Origin: Limosilactobacillus caccae
Lineage (GTDB): Bacteria; Bacillota; Bacilli; Lactobacillales; Lactobacillaceae
Direction of reading: 5' to 3'
DNA: 64,000 nt
Assembly (NCBI RefSeq): GCF_900156885.1
Contig: NZ_FTOY01000011.1
Coordinates: 124,001-188,000, forward strand
Shown here: positions 41,062-45,524 of the stretch, piece after piece
Layout of the letters: every line of letters starts with the position of its first letter
Numbering within the stretch: the stretch's first letter is position 1
Notes under the pieces: generated by a model
The model's database searches: none
What the model saw: only the letters and a program-made list of their open reading frames with translations
What the model was told of the DNA's origin: nothing
Made by a program: the position numbers and the translations under genes

Positions 41062-43923
41062 GTGGCAAACGATAAGATCGTAATCCATGGGGCACGTGCT
41101 CACAACTTAAAGAATATTGATGTAACAATTCCCAAAAACAAATTAGTGGTTGTCACGGGACTTTCGGGGTCCGGAAAGAGTTCGCTGGCATTTGATACCC
41201 TCTATGCGGAGGGACAGCGGCGGTATGTTGAGAGTCTATCCGCGTATGCCCGGCAGTTTTTGGGGCAGATGGATAAGCCGGATGTCGACTCAATTGATGG
41301 CCTGTCACCGGCAATCTCAATTGACCAGAAGACCACTTCCCATAATCCCCGGTCGACGGTCGGGACGGTAACGGAAATCAATGACTTTCTCCGCCTCCTC
41401 TGGGCACGGGTCGGCACCCCGATTTGTCCCAATGACCATATTCCAATTACCAGTCAGTCAGCAGAACAGATGGTTGACCGGGTCCTAGAATTACCAGCAC
41501 GGACGCGGCTACAAATCTTGTCACCAATTGTCCGGGGCAAGAAGGGGACGCAAAAGAAAGTCTTTGCGACAATCAAACGCGAAGGATTTGTCCGGGTGCA
41601 AGTCGATGGCGAGACCTATGACCTTGATGAGGTGCCCACGTTAGACAAAAATAAGCAGCATACGGTTAACGTGGTAATTGACCGGATAATTGTGAAGGAT
41701 GGGATTCGCTCCCGGCTATTTGACTCCTTTGAAGCGGCCTTGCGGTTAAGTAATGGTTATGCGATTGCCGACGTCATTGGTGGCGACCCGATTCCCTTTT
41801 CAGAGCAATATGCCTGTCCGATCTGTGGCTTTACGGTTGGTGAACTAGAACCTCGCTTGTTCTCGTTCAATGCTCCTCTGGGGGCCTGCCCTGCCTGCGA
41901 AGGGCTTGGCCTAAAATTAGAAGTTGATATCGACCTGGTTGTGCCTGACCGGACAAAGACCCTTCGTGACGGGGCGATGGCACCGTGGAACCCAATCTCG
42001 TCCCAATACTACCCGCAACTGCTTGAACAATTCTGTAAGTCGGCGGGGATTGATATGGATACCCCCTTTAACAAGCTACCGAAGAAACAGCAACAGCAAG
42101 TTCTTTATGGTAATGGGGAGAAGACTTTCCACTTCCACTATGAGAACGACTTTGGGGGTGTCCGTGACGTGGATGTTCCATTCGAAGGGGTAATCAACAA
42201 CATTAGCCGCCGCTACAAGGAGACCAACTCTGACTTCACCAGGGAACAAATGCGCAAATACATGACCGAGTTACCTTGTCCAGTCTGCCACGGTTACCGC
42301 TTAAACGAACGGGCGCTGGCAGTTAAGATTGACGGCAAAAATATCGGGGAAGTTTCCGAGTTGCCGATTAGTAAGTCACTGCAATTCTTTAGCGACCTCC
42401 AGTTGGCAGAGCAAAAATTACAGATTGCCAAGCCAATTTTAAAAGAAATTATTGACCGGCTGACCTTTATGAAGAACGTGGGGGTCGAGTACCTGACCCT
42501 CAGTCGTTCAGCGAGAACTCTTTCCGGGGGTGAAGCCCAGCGGATCCGGCTGGCAACCCAGATTGGGTCCAACTTGTCCGGGGTGATGTATGTCCTTGAT
42601 GAACCATCAATTGGGCTTCACCAGCGGGATAATGACCGCTTGATTTCTTCGCTTAAGGCGATGCGGGACCTTGGTAATACCCTGATCGTTGTCGAACACG
42701 ATGAGGATACGATGCGGTCAGCGGATTATATCATTGATATTGGCCCTGGCGCCGGGGAAAACGGTGGTCAGGTAATGGCAGCAGGGACGCCAAAGCAGAT
42801 AATGCGGTCGCGAAAGTCCCTAACTGGGCAGTACCTGTCTGGTAAGAAGTTTATCCAGGTGCCTGCAGAACGGCGAGCAGGCAATGGTAAACACATCGTT
42901 GTCAAGGGCGCTGCAGCAAATAACCTAAAGAATATCGACGTTGATTTTCCACTAGGCAAGTTTATCTGTGTAACCGGGGTCTCCGGTTCTGGGAAGTCAA
43001 CCCTTGTTAATCTAATCTTAAAGCGGATCCTTGCCCAAAAGTTAAACCGTAATTCTGCTAAGCCAGGGAAGTACAAGTCGATTAGTGGGGTCAAGAATAT
43101 CGAAAAGGTAATTGATATTGACCAGTCGCCGATTGGCCGGACCCCGCGGAGTAACCCCGCAACGTATACTGGCGTCTTTGATGATATCCGTGAACTCTTT
43201 GCCCAGACTAATCAGGCGAAGATGCGCGGTTATACCAAGGGCCGGTTTAGTTTTAACGTTAAGGGCGGCCGTTGTGAGGCCTGCCATGGGGATGGGATCA
43301 TTAAGATTGAGATGAACTTCCTTCCTGATGTCTATGTCCCCTGTGAGGTTTGCCACGGCACCCGTTACAACTCCGAAACGTTGGAAGTTGAATATAAGGG
43401 GAAAAACATCGCCCAGGTCTTAAACATGACTGTTTCTGAAGCGCTTGACTTCTTTAGCGCGATTCCGAAGATTAAGCGGAAGTTGCAAACGATCCAGGAT
43501 GTCGGCCTCGGCTATGTCCACCTTGGTCAGCCAGCAACCACCTTGTCTGGTGGGGAAGCCCAGCGGATGAAGTTGGCGGCCGAATTACACCGGCAATCCC
43601 ATGGCAAGAGTTTCTATATCCTTGATGAACCAACGACGGGGCTGCACATGGATGACATTAACCGCCTGCTAGCGGTCTTACAACGGCTGGTCGATGCAGG
43701 AAACACGGTCTTAGTGATTGAACATGACTTAGATGTTGTGAAGTCAGCAGACTGGTTGATTGACCTCGGCCCAGAAGGTGGTGAAGGCGGTGGGAACATC
43801 GTCGCGACCGGGACACCGGAAGAGGTGGCAGAAGTCAAGGAGAGTTATACTGGCCGCTACTTAAAGCAGATGCTCGCGCGGGATGCAAAATGGGCTGCTG
43901 AACGGACGGCGAAAAAGAAGTAA
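41062..43923 (+). CDS. uvrA: Excinuclease ABC subunit A
   Basis: 953 residues from GTG 41062 behind AGGAGGGG. Two ABC ATPase halves with [14 protein letters not shown] and [12 protein letters not shown] (Walker A), [16 protein letters not shown] and [15 protein letters not shown] (signatures), and zinc modules CPICGF/CPACEG and [16 protein letters not shown]. It forms the damage-sensing UvrA2-UvrB complex of nucleotide excision repair. Second gene of uvrBA. No terminator follows at once; the next promoter begins 8 bases after the stop. Confidence 0.98.
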
Positions 43924-43930
43924 AAAAGTG

Positions 43931-43959
43931 TTGCATTATTAATCTTCTAATGGTATTCT
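43931..43959 (+). promoter_or_regulatory. Promoter of the steT-like leader
   Basis: TTGCAT, 17-base spacer, TATTCT; predicted start about 43966, giving a leader of about 220 bases before the permease. Confidence 0.65.
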
Positions 43960-43997
43960 AATTAAAAATTAAATGTACACGGAAAGAGGGACAACTG

Positions 43998-44066
43998 ATG
44001 AACACAATGAATAATCATCTTCAACAAGTTTCCTCCTCAGCCTCTAGTTCTACGATGGCTGAGTGA
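43998..44066 (+). CDS. Ser-rich leader peptide ORF (22 codons)
   Basis: ATG 43998 follows AAAGAGGG (43983-43990) and TGA is at 44064. Six of the seven codons 12-18 are serine (TCC TCC TCA, GCC, TCT AGT TCT), so the peptide contains VSSSASSST. Three tRNA-Ser boxes would be sampled. It is too short for an enzyme and precedes a terminator and a Ser/Thr-type permease, as in a ribosome-controlled attenuator. Inside the ORF CTCAGCC (44036) can pair with GGCTGAG (44057). Confidence 0.5.
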   Translation: MNTMNNHLQQVSSSASSSTMAE

Positions 44067-44094
44067 TTTTGGTGTACCCATTACTAGGTTAGTT

Positions 44095-44155
44095 AACCCG
44101 GGCCGGCTTTAATCATTTGGTGAGACCATAATGATACGAGTGGGGCCCGGTTTTT
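44095..44155 (+). terminator. Compound terminator/attenuator before the permease
   Basis: AACCCGGGCC (44095-44104) pairs, with one bulge, with GGCCCGGTT (44144-44152); inside, ATCATTTGG pairs with CCATAATGAT. TTTTT-A-TTT follows. It ends 31 bases before the permease start. Confidence 0.75.
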
Positions 44156-44186
44156 ATTTGGCCTAATTGAGAATGGAGGAATGATA

Positions 44187-45524
44187 ATGGATAATCAACA
44201 ACCAACGGAAGAACTAAAACGGTCGCTTGGGTTCTGGTCAGCAATTTCAATTGTCGTCGGGACAATCATTGGGTCCGGAATCTTTTTCAAGCAGGGTTCA
44301 GTGCTTGATAGCGCTGGAAGTTCGACTTTGGCAATTGCTGCCTGGGTCTTCGGGGGGATTATTACCCTGACCGGGGGCCTGACGGTTGCGGAAATCGGGT
44401 CGCAGATGCCATATACCGGGGGCCTTTATGTTTACATTGAAAACATTTATGGCCGGATCCTTGGTTTCTTGGCGGGGTGGATGCAGGTAATTGTGTATGG
44501 CCCAGCAATCATCGCCTCAGTTGCCGGCTTTATGAGTATCCTGATGGCAAACTTCTTTGGCCTCGGGGCACAATGGCGGATCCCCCTTGCGGTAATTACC
44601 GTTTTAGCGATTGGGATTATGAATCTTTTGGAAAATAAGGTGGGGGCGATTTTTGCCATCATCACCACTGCCGGAAAGATGATCCCGATTGCCGCAATTA
44701 TTATCTTTGGTTTGTTTTGGGGTAACCAGCATGCCTTTGGTCAGACAGTGACCGAAATTAACCACGCAACGGGTGGCTTTGGGGTTGCCGTTTTAGCGAC
44801 CTTGTTTGGTTATGATGGCTGGATCCTAATCGCCAACCTTGGTGGGGAAATGAAGAACCCGCAAAAGTTGTTGCCCAAAGCAATTATTCTTGGAATTACC
44901 GCTGTGCTGGTGATCTACACGTTAATTACAATTGGGATTCTTAAATTCCTCCCCGCTAATACAATTCACCGCTTGGGAGAAAACGCAACTGCCTACCTGG
45001 CAGTGAAGGCCTTTGGACAAATCGGCGGGAAGCTCCTCTCTGCCGGGATCATCGTTTCAATGATGGGGACGTTAAACGGGAAGATGATTACCTTCCCACG
45101 GATTGTTTATGCAATGGCCCGGCGGCGGGACCTGCCGTTTTCCCGTTACTTGTCATACGTCACGCCAAAGGGGAAGTCACCAGTAGTTGCCACCATGTTC
45201 ATTGTGATTTTAGCAACCCTGATGATGTGCTTCTTTGACCCGGACCACTTATCAGACCTCTGTGTCTTTACCGTTTACTGCTTCTACTTACTGGCATTCT
45301 TTGGGATCTTTATTTTGCGGCGGCGGAATAAGGAGGGGGAGCGGCCATTCAGCACGCCACTCTACCCCCTTGTGCCGATCATTGCGATTGCCGGTGGAAT
45401 TTTTGTCTTAGTCAGTGAAGTGTTTAACGATCCGGCAGGGGTGCTCCTCTTTATCGGTATCGTGATTGTTGGTTTGCCGATTTTATACTTTGTCAAGCGG
45501 ATGGACCAACGGCGGATGCATTAA
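44187..45524 (+). CDS. SteT-like serine/threonine exchanger (APC family)
   Basis: 445 residues from ATG 44187 (GGAGG at 44175; an ATG at 44181 is too close). Twelve helices. The helix 1 motif SIVVGTIIGSGIFFKQG and the LAT-family features GGLYVYIENIYGRILGFLAGW and NLGGEMKNPQKLLPKAI place it with bacterial SteT, a Ser/Thr exchanger related to mammalian LAT light chains. Exact substrate is unproven; the Ser-rich leader supports serine. No co-transcribed metabolic genes. Confidence 0.82.
   Translation: MDNQQPTEELKRSLGFWSAISIVVGTIIGSGIFFKQGSVLDSAGSSTLAIAAWVFGGIITLTGGLTVAEIGSQMPYTGGLYVYIENIYGRILGFLAGWMQVIVYGPAIIASVAGFMSILMANFFGLGAQWRIPLAVITVLAIGIMNLLENKVGAIFAIITTAGKMIPIAAIIIFGLFWGNQHAFGQTVTEINHATGGFGVAVLATLFGYDGWILIANLGGEMKNPQKLLPKAIILGITAVLVIYTLITIGILKFLPANTIHRLGENATAYLAVKAFGQIGGKLLSAGIIVSMMGTLNGKMITFPRIVYAMARRRDLPFSRYLSYVTPKGKSPVVATMFIVILATLMMCFFDPDHLSDLCVFTVYCFYLLAFFGIFILRRRNKEGERPFSTPLYPLVPIIAIAGGIFVLVSEVFNDPAGVLLFIGIVIVGLPILYFVKRMDQRRMH

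Follow-up and report, generated by a model that had tools for sequence, protein, structure and literature searches.

The leader between uvrA and the permease gene

In the window (the whole stretch of 64,000 nucleotides that was analysed), a leader of 263 nt lies between uvrA, which ends at 43923, and a gene for an APC-superfamily permease at 44187-45524. The features read from it are the following, the helix arms being numbered as regions 1 to 4.

43931-43959, forward strand: promoter with TTGCAT (43931-43936), a 17-nt spacer and TATTCT (43954-43959), with TG before the -10; read from the sequence and kept upstream of the leader in the genus alignment
43975-43980, forward strand: GTACAC, the 5' strand of an outer helix around the leader ORF, which pairs with 44072-44077; from the MFE fold
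43986-43990, forward strand: SD-like GAGGG of the leader ORF; from the sequence
43998-44066, forward strand: leader peptide ORF MNTMNNHLQQVSSSASSSTMAE of 22 codons with stop TGA at 44064-44066; from the sequence and a codon comparison among relatives
44031-44051, forward strand: putative regulatory codons 12-18, TCC TCC TCA GCC TCT AGT TCT (S S S A S S S); from the sequence and the codon columns of 44 leaders
44036-44042, forward strand: region 1, CTCAGCC, the 5' arm of a protector hairpin within the Ser codons; from folding and a shuffle test
44057-44068, forward strand: region 2, GGCTGAGTGATT, the 3' arm of that hairpin (GGCTGAG, 44057-44063) plus the stop codon; can pair with region 1 or region 3
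44072-44077, forward strand: 3' strand (GTGTAC) of the outer helix; from the MFE fold and a duplex-versus-shuffle test
44098-44150, forward strand: intrinsic terminator hairpin (region 3:4), about -27 kcal/mol; from a terminator search by sequence
44111-44121, forward strand: region 3, AATCATTTGGT, the inner part of the terminator 5' arm and antiterminator partner of region 2; from duplex tests
44151-44155, forward strand: T tract (T5) of the terminator, 31 nt before the permease ATG at 44187; from the sequence
44187-45524, forward strand: APC-superfamily (LAT-type) amino-acid permease P0001, the putative regulated gene; Pfam AA_permease_2, 4.5e-60, with SD GGAGG at 44175-44179

These elements agree with a sequence-only reading of the same DNA, whose promoter, SD, 22-codon ORF and six serines in codons 12-18 are correct base for base, and both the CTCAGCC/GGCTGAG hairpin that it placed inside the ORF and its terminator ending in TTTTT 31 nt before the permease were confirmed. 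The promoter is not listed in a consensus promoter scan, and the terminator is not listed by a terminator scan whose model is a plain stem with a loop of 3-8 only. The MFE of the 198-nt leader is -63.5 kcal/mol (z = -3.2 against shuffles, with 1 of 200 shuffles equally good). No T-box (Rfam RF00230) was found in the leader, either at the gathering score or at E<=10, and the Rfam 15 covariance models assigned it to no family, the only match being a 13.8-bit snoRNA on the other strand (gathering score 100). A T-box or other Rfam element was rejected on this ground.

An alternative ATG of the permease at 44181 is too near the SD. All NCBIfam matches of the permease are below cutoff, including that to the L-type transporter (200 bits; cutoff 702), and the label 'SteT-like' proposed earlier is plausible, SteT itself not having been compared. 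The nearest PDB sequence (6f2g/6f2w, 291 bits) is deposited as a putative amino acid/polyamine transport protein and is taken by us to be BasC, an Ala-Ser-Cys exchanger. BasC is described as an alanine-serine-cysteine exchanger in the available part of its report (PMC6472337). Serine may be a substrate of this permease, but this rests on the nearest relative by sequence, without a transport assay.

Distribution of serine leaders

The permease is present in 48 of the 50 same-genus genomes at E<=1e-120, while BLAST matched the leader DNA in 24 of the 50. Forty-seven of the 48 upstream regions were read, the remaining one (in G014) beginning at a contig end, and the Ser mini-ORF is intact in 35 of these, frameshifted in one (L011) and absent in 11. 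Twelve of the 35 intact leaders are too diverged for the leader BLAST and still keep the peptide, e.g. MLQLNLTHFNLSSSSTSSSLIVVG, MIQHYFKINQSSSSASI, MIPYQFNISSSSSSTSALVG and MNNTNQINLFMLNTSSSSSSLT. Judged from the alignments, conservation of a mini-ORF with a Ser run at this frequency is beyond chance, and the absence of a conserved Ser run or start among relatives, which would have refuted the idea of a serine attenuator, was not found. The leader precedes the permease in two neighbourhoods, beside uvrA and on the rplJ/rplL side.

A covariance model built on the Ser leaders (R1; alignment without L006 and L011) matched 37 of the 50 genus genomes and 8 of 201 family genomes, the latter in 2 of 40 genera. 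An exact-pattern search over the family found only 4 of the 201 genomes and missed the window itself. Outside the genus 74 homologous places were listed, and of the 40 upstreams read among them a single one (L055) has a Ser leader. A scan of named genomes gave 53 loci, of which one (L134) was dropped for want of upstream sequence. By our count, 29 of the remaining 52 have the leader, 28 found by script and one (L119, with the degraded run SPSSVSNN) by eye; a script match at L146 was judged not to be a Ser leader. It is present, for instance, in Limosilactobacillus reuteri, balticus, frumenti, vaginalis, panis and ingluviei, as well as in Lactobacillus johnsonii ATCC 33200, L. corticis and L. 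hamsteri. Among the 23 named loci without a Ser leader, L146 included, Limosilactobacillus is represented by gorillae, pontis, kribbianus and timonensis; the loci of Furfurilactobacillus, Levilactobacillus, Weissella, Periweissella, Dellaglioa and Ligilactobacillus saerimneri belong here too. As the named-genome loci often come from the same assemblies as the genus set, the two counts are not additive.

Some loci have other arrangements. The permease of L032 (G034) directly follows uvrA with zero gap and no leader, so that the attenuator has been lost in a close relative, and about 1 kb separates promoter and leader at L011/L025 (G036), where the ORF is frameshifted and may be a decaying copy. 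Two leaders, L051 and L052 (G039 and G024), are hybrids of the form TSSSTTT(T)S before a LAT-type permease and may sense Ser and Thr together. In L133 of Ligilactobacillus saerimneri the permease lies just 3' of a gene with an aminoacyl-tRNA synthetase-like end (by eye only), without a leader peptide. In genus g26, T-box-like elements precede the permease homologues of L095-L099, with two copies in L096 and L098. The top-scoring element per locus reaches 50-58 bits in these five (gathering score 93); as a tRNA specifier cannot be assigned, the elements were not drawn on as evidence. The upstreams of G074 and G165 were added for the T-box question, beyond the 40 read outside the genus.

Mutually exclusive helices and the proposed mechanism

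The sequence-only reading found no convincing antiterminator by eye; nevertheless, duplex computation reveals one between 44058-44068 (GCTGAGTGATT) and 44111-44121 (region 3), with 11 uninterrupted bp, four of them wobbles. Region 2 doubles as the 3' arm of the Ser hairpin, and region 3 lies within the 5' arm of the terminator, so that the 1:2, 2:3 and 3:4 helices are mutually exclusive. On the predicted pairings, this is the layout of trp-type attenuators. The UGA stop codon of the window leader (44064-44066) falls inside region 2. By our own reading, 39 of the 44 Ser leaders have their stop within region 2; four (L036, L037, L038 and L053) have it at the 5' edge of that region or immediately before, and L131 has it immediately after the region. 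A terminator was found in all 36 intact leaders first tested and in all 8 added later (by sequence; no transcript ends were mapped), and all 36 have at least 4 of the 6 letters of AGGAGG before the start codon, a score that the same script also used to pick the start among candidates.

Folding with the ribosome as a mask gave, over 36 leaders, a mean 2:3 contact of 14.8 nt when the ribosome is stalled on the Ser codons versus 0.3 nt when it is on the stop codon, and in 35 of the 36 the contact is greater by at least 4 nt in the stalled state. The A site +13 nt of the footprint model is a convention, and since the mask takes region 2 away by construction at the stop, part of the contrast is inherent in the model. 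With the RNA 5' of the ribosome omitted, the antiterminator of the window has -18.5 kcal/mol for a stall at codon 12, 13, 14 or 16, -15.6 at codon 17 and -11.5 (6 bp left) at codon 18, and is not formed with the ribosome on the stop codon. With upstream RNA free to pair, the stalled 2:3 contact of the window is 4.7 nt, the second lowest of the 36 after L055 (4.0). Without a ribosome, the mean contacts are 7.2 nt for 1:2 and 5.9 nt for 2:3. Four leaders (L024, L040, L041 and L053) depart from this: even with no ribosome present they make 14.5-20.5 nt of 2:3 contact and almost no 1:2 contact, so that termination by default in the absence of translation is not predicted for them.

The 2:3 duplex was also compared with duplexes of shuffled regions 3 and of regions 3 taken from other clades. 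The mean energy is -17.5 kcal/mol for the own partner, -11.7 for shuffled and -14.8 for swapped ones (14 clades; own < shuffled, p = 6e-5; own < swapped, p = 9e-4). These p values are descriptive and no proof, as the clades were defined by eye and, like the region windows, only once the pairing was already known. Three of the 14 clades (A, which includes the window, B and D) do no better than swapped partners, and the window duplex is among the weaker ones (-15.9 for its own partner, 9% of shuffles equally good, mean of swapped partners -17.6). With the 8 leaders added, 43 of the 44 Ser leaders have a 2:3 duplex below its shuffle mean; 29 reach p<=0.05 and 15 do not. For the 1:2 duplex, the counts below the mean and at p<=0.05 are 43 and 36 of 44. 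The frameshifted L011 was excluded from the pairing tests.

The DNA of several clades has diverged widely, but these clades all retain the Ser codons, the terminator and, through compensatory changes, the 2:3 pairing. Clades of unlike sequence keep the 2:3 pairing, for instance GGCTGAGTGATT/AATCATTTGGC, GGTTGAGTGA/TCACTTAACC, AAGCAGTTGAG/CTTAACTGCTT and TAACTGGTT/AACCAGTTA. The outer helix changes in pairs as well (e.g. GTACAC/GTGTAC, ATGCCAA/TTGGCAT and AAGCACG/CGTGTGCTT); its duplex, tested in the Ser set only, is below the shuffle mean in 36 of 44 leaders and at p<=0.05 in 21. By inference, the outer helix may help the leader to refold after departure of the ribosome. A pairing of the SD with the Ser codons was considered as a further conserved feature and is not claimed for the Ser leaders (below the shuffle mean in 29 of 44, p<=0.05 in 5).

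The relatives thus share a conserved ORF, its Ser codons, the hairpin, the terminator and a 2:3 complementarity that co-varies. We regard it as very likely that the leader controls the permease by ribosome-mediated transcription attenuation, with charged tRNA-Ser as the signal, although stalling, termination and the response to serine are inferred and there are no expression data. With ample serine, a ribosome would cross the Ser codons and reach the UGA within region 2; with region 2 covered, region 3 would pair with region 4 and transcription would end at 44151-44155. When charged tRNA-Ser is scarce, the ribosome would stall on codons 12-18 and cover region 1, leaving region 2 to pair with region 3 (44058-44068 with 44111-44121), so that no terminator forms and transcription proceeds into the permease gene. 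In the absence of translation, the window leader is expected to form the 1:2 hairpin, with termination as the default. The serine attenuator proposed in the sequence-only reading is thereby supported by the conserved Ser frame, the terminators, the competing antiterminator and a Thr counterpart on a ThrP-like permease (see below); the antiterminator, the outer helix and the Thr-rich counterpart elsewhere in the same genome were absent from that reading. Counted against the attenuator are the genus upstreams in which the leader is absent or frameshifted, and the g26 homologue with a T-box-like element.

It seems improbable that translation of the leader reports general translation speed, another amino acid or a drug instead of serine. 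Such a signal could account for the two leaders that mix Ser and Thr (MQHVTVQYHQTSSSTTTSLVVE and its relative), and a LAT-type permease may carry several neutral amino acids; against this, Ser outnumbers Thr in 35 of the Ser set's 37 distinct peptides (the exceptions are those TSSSTTT hybrids), and the N-terminal half of the peptide varies between clades. Arrest peptides are not known for such variation.

A still slighter chance is left for the conserved element being an RNA structure alone, i.e. a protein- or ligand-binding attenuator in which the Ser codons are a by-product of CCTCC/CTCAGCC. The nucleotides of TCCTCCTCAG are indeed more conserved than Ser coding alone requires, and the outer helix does enclose the ORF, but in the ORF frame the codon differences are synonymous in 36% of comparisons and Ser/Thr is preserved in 48%, whereas the other two frames give 12% and 10% for the former and 1% and 3% for the latter. 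In the codon table (34 distinct codon strings of the 44 Ser leaders, anchored on a common in-frame TCA that is invariant by choice of the anchor), Ser is preserved through synonymous codons with both AGY and TCN in use; column +2, for example, has Ser encoded by TCT, TCC, TCA, AGT and AGC, besides one Thr and one Pro codon. Moreover, the SD, start and frame persist while the ORF length and stop position change, the stop shifting between clades from GAG-TGA to GGC-TGA with the Ser frame preserved. The lack of an Rfam match and the existence of a second attenuator with a like hairpin but Thr codons also speak against an RNA structure alone.

A functional small protein, or a chance ORF with the terminator of some unrelated short transcript behind it, can practically be dismissed, for although the ORF has its own promoter and terminator, it precedes the permease in both neighbourhoods, and the 2:3 complementarity and co-variation would have no role.

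Threonine-rich leaders and known attenuators

R1 also flagged a second locus in many genomes of the genus, though for the window's own genome the match was weak (G000:C4:466987-467103, E = 0.058). Its counterpart to the serine attenuator lies outside the window:

G000:C4:466978-467112 (locus L153): Thr-rich leader attenuator with the run MQIYIRDIIHHLTSTSTTTTSTVVGHL, before a ThrP-like permease

Nineteen such loci were read; they have the promoter type, SD and hairpin layout of the Ser leaders with a Thr run, and a different permease lies downstream. Fifteen of the 19 are in genomes that also possess a Ser leader, frameshifted in one case. The best NCBIfam match of the permease (window's genome only) is ThrP, 'bifunctional threonine/serine APC transporter', at 554 bits (cutoff 850), closely followed by PRK10746 at 548 bits (cutoff 799), both thus below the curated cutoffs.

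A covariance model of the Thr leaders (R2) matched 43 of the 50 genus genomes, with both leader types counted, and, across the family, 17 of 201 genomes from 6 of 40 genera; of an order-wide sample of 295 genomes, four match at E<=0.01, all within the family of the window. Among 20 further R2 loci read, 17 have a Thr leader and a permease of the same N-terminal sequence type, and three (L175, L176 and L179) are plain terminators without Thr leader or permease and were left out of the Thr set. The Thr-type matches in the genus were read in part (30 loci, 19 + 11). Thr leaders were read in genera g1, g5, g13, g18 and g22; those of g5 and g18 score weakly with the model (E 0.01-0.05) and were accepted on the strength of the leader and permease that were read.

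Pairing in the Thr set is similarly tested. The 2:3 duplex is below the shuffle mean in 35 of 35 leaders (p<=0.05 in 29; L189, whose terminator was missed by the script, was left out); for the 1:2 hairpin the corresponding counts are 33 and 24 of 36. Pairing of the SD with the regulatory codons is stronger than in the Ser set, being below the mean in 36 of 36 and at p<=0.05 in 19. The stop codon stands before, in or after region 2. Thr outnumbers Ser in all 34 distinct peptides of the Thr set; five Thr leaders without the anchor codon are omitted from the codon table. In a few clades the hairpin core CCTCAACC is common to Ser and Thr leaders while the surrounding codons differ. As far as aligned leaders can tell, this shared core with exchanged codons, together with the Ser/Thr tallies, is the best evidence that the codons are the sensor, and the Thr attenuator presumably works likewise for threonine.

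We think it probable that these leaders form a Lactobacillaceae family of permease attenuators, in which one RNA switch has Ser and Thr codons exchanged in its first arm and the amino acid sensed follows the one transported. Ser leaders would precede LAT/BasC-like permeases, Thr leaders ThrP-like ones, and hybrids would carry both kinds of codon. If this is true, a translated Ser sensor and a matched Thr sensor are added in common gut and food lactobacilli, the leader codons predict the substrates of two permeases, and there is a ready test of how attenuators change specificity, with like RNA switches and different codons read by the ribosome. Another possible use of the leader is as a serine-responsive element for gene expression in commensal lactobacilli.

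Ribosome-mediated transcription attenuators of the trp/his/thr type are known from Proteobacteria, and in Firmicutes control by amino acids is commonly attributed to T-boxes, CodY and riboswitches. The leader studied here resembles the trp/his/thr type in its ORF with an SD, the run of regulatory codons, the exclusive 1:2, 2:3 and 3:4 helices, the stop codon at region 2 and the terminator before the gene. It differs in that it would sense serine and target a permease, in its lactobacillus host and in the outer helix around the ORF. Leader-peptide attenuation in Firmicutes is represented by the Leu-rich peptide of the Staphylococcus aureus ilv-leu operon (PMC5794164) and the His leader peptides before hisZ/hisS* of bacilli (PMC2965389), which, in the accessible portions of these papers, concern other amino acids and biosynthetic or tRNA-synthetase-like genes. 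The ilvB uORF of Corynebacterium and other uORF candidates (PMC8632094, PMC11109978) are likewise uORF attenuators from comparative genomics, as far as the texts at hand go. The words 'serine', 'Lactobacill' and 'permease' are absent from the main text of both of these papers, and 'serine' from that of PMC2965389. Among the matches listed in our literature searches, from which supplements, preprints and most subscription papers were outside, there is no Ser or Thr leader attenuator and no leader-peptide attenuation in a lactobacillus. Within the reach of these searches, the novelty lies in the amino acid sensed, the target and the lineage, the mechanism itself being of a known kind; such control appears to have been seldom described in gut lactobacilli.

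Control of an APC permease by amino-acid supply has another form in the Bacillus cereus group, where the orthologue (ykbA/SteT) of the Ser/Thr exchanger SteT is under a Thr T-box (PMC2494555). According to the part of that paper available, this is a tRNA-binding riboswitch without a leader peptide, whereas the window leader has no T-box. For hisS, amino-acid control recurs by different sensors (PMC2965389), and by analogy this type of permease, too, may repeatedly have come under the control of amino acids through different sensors.
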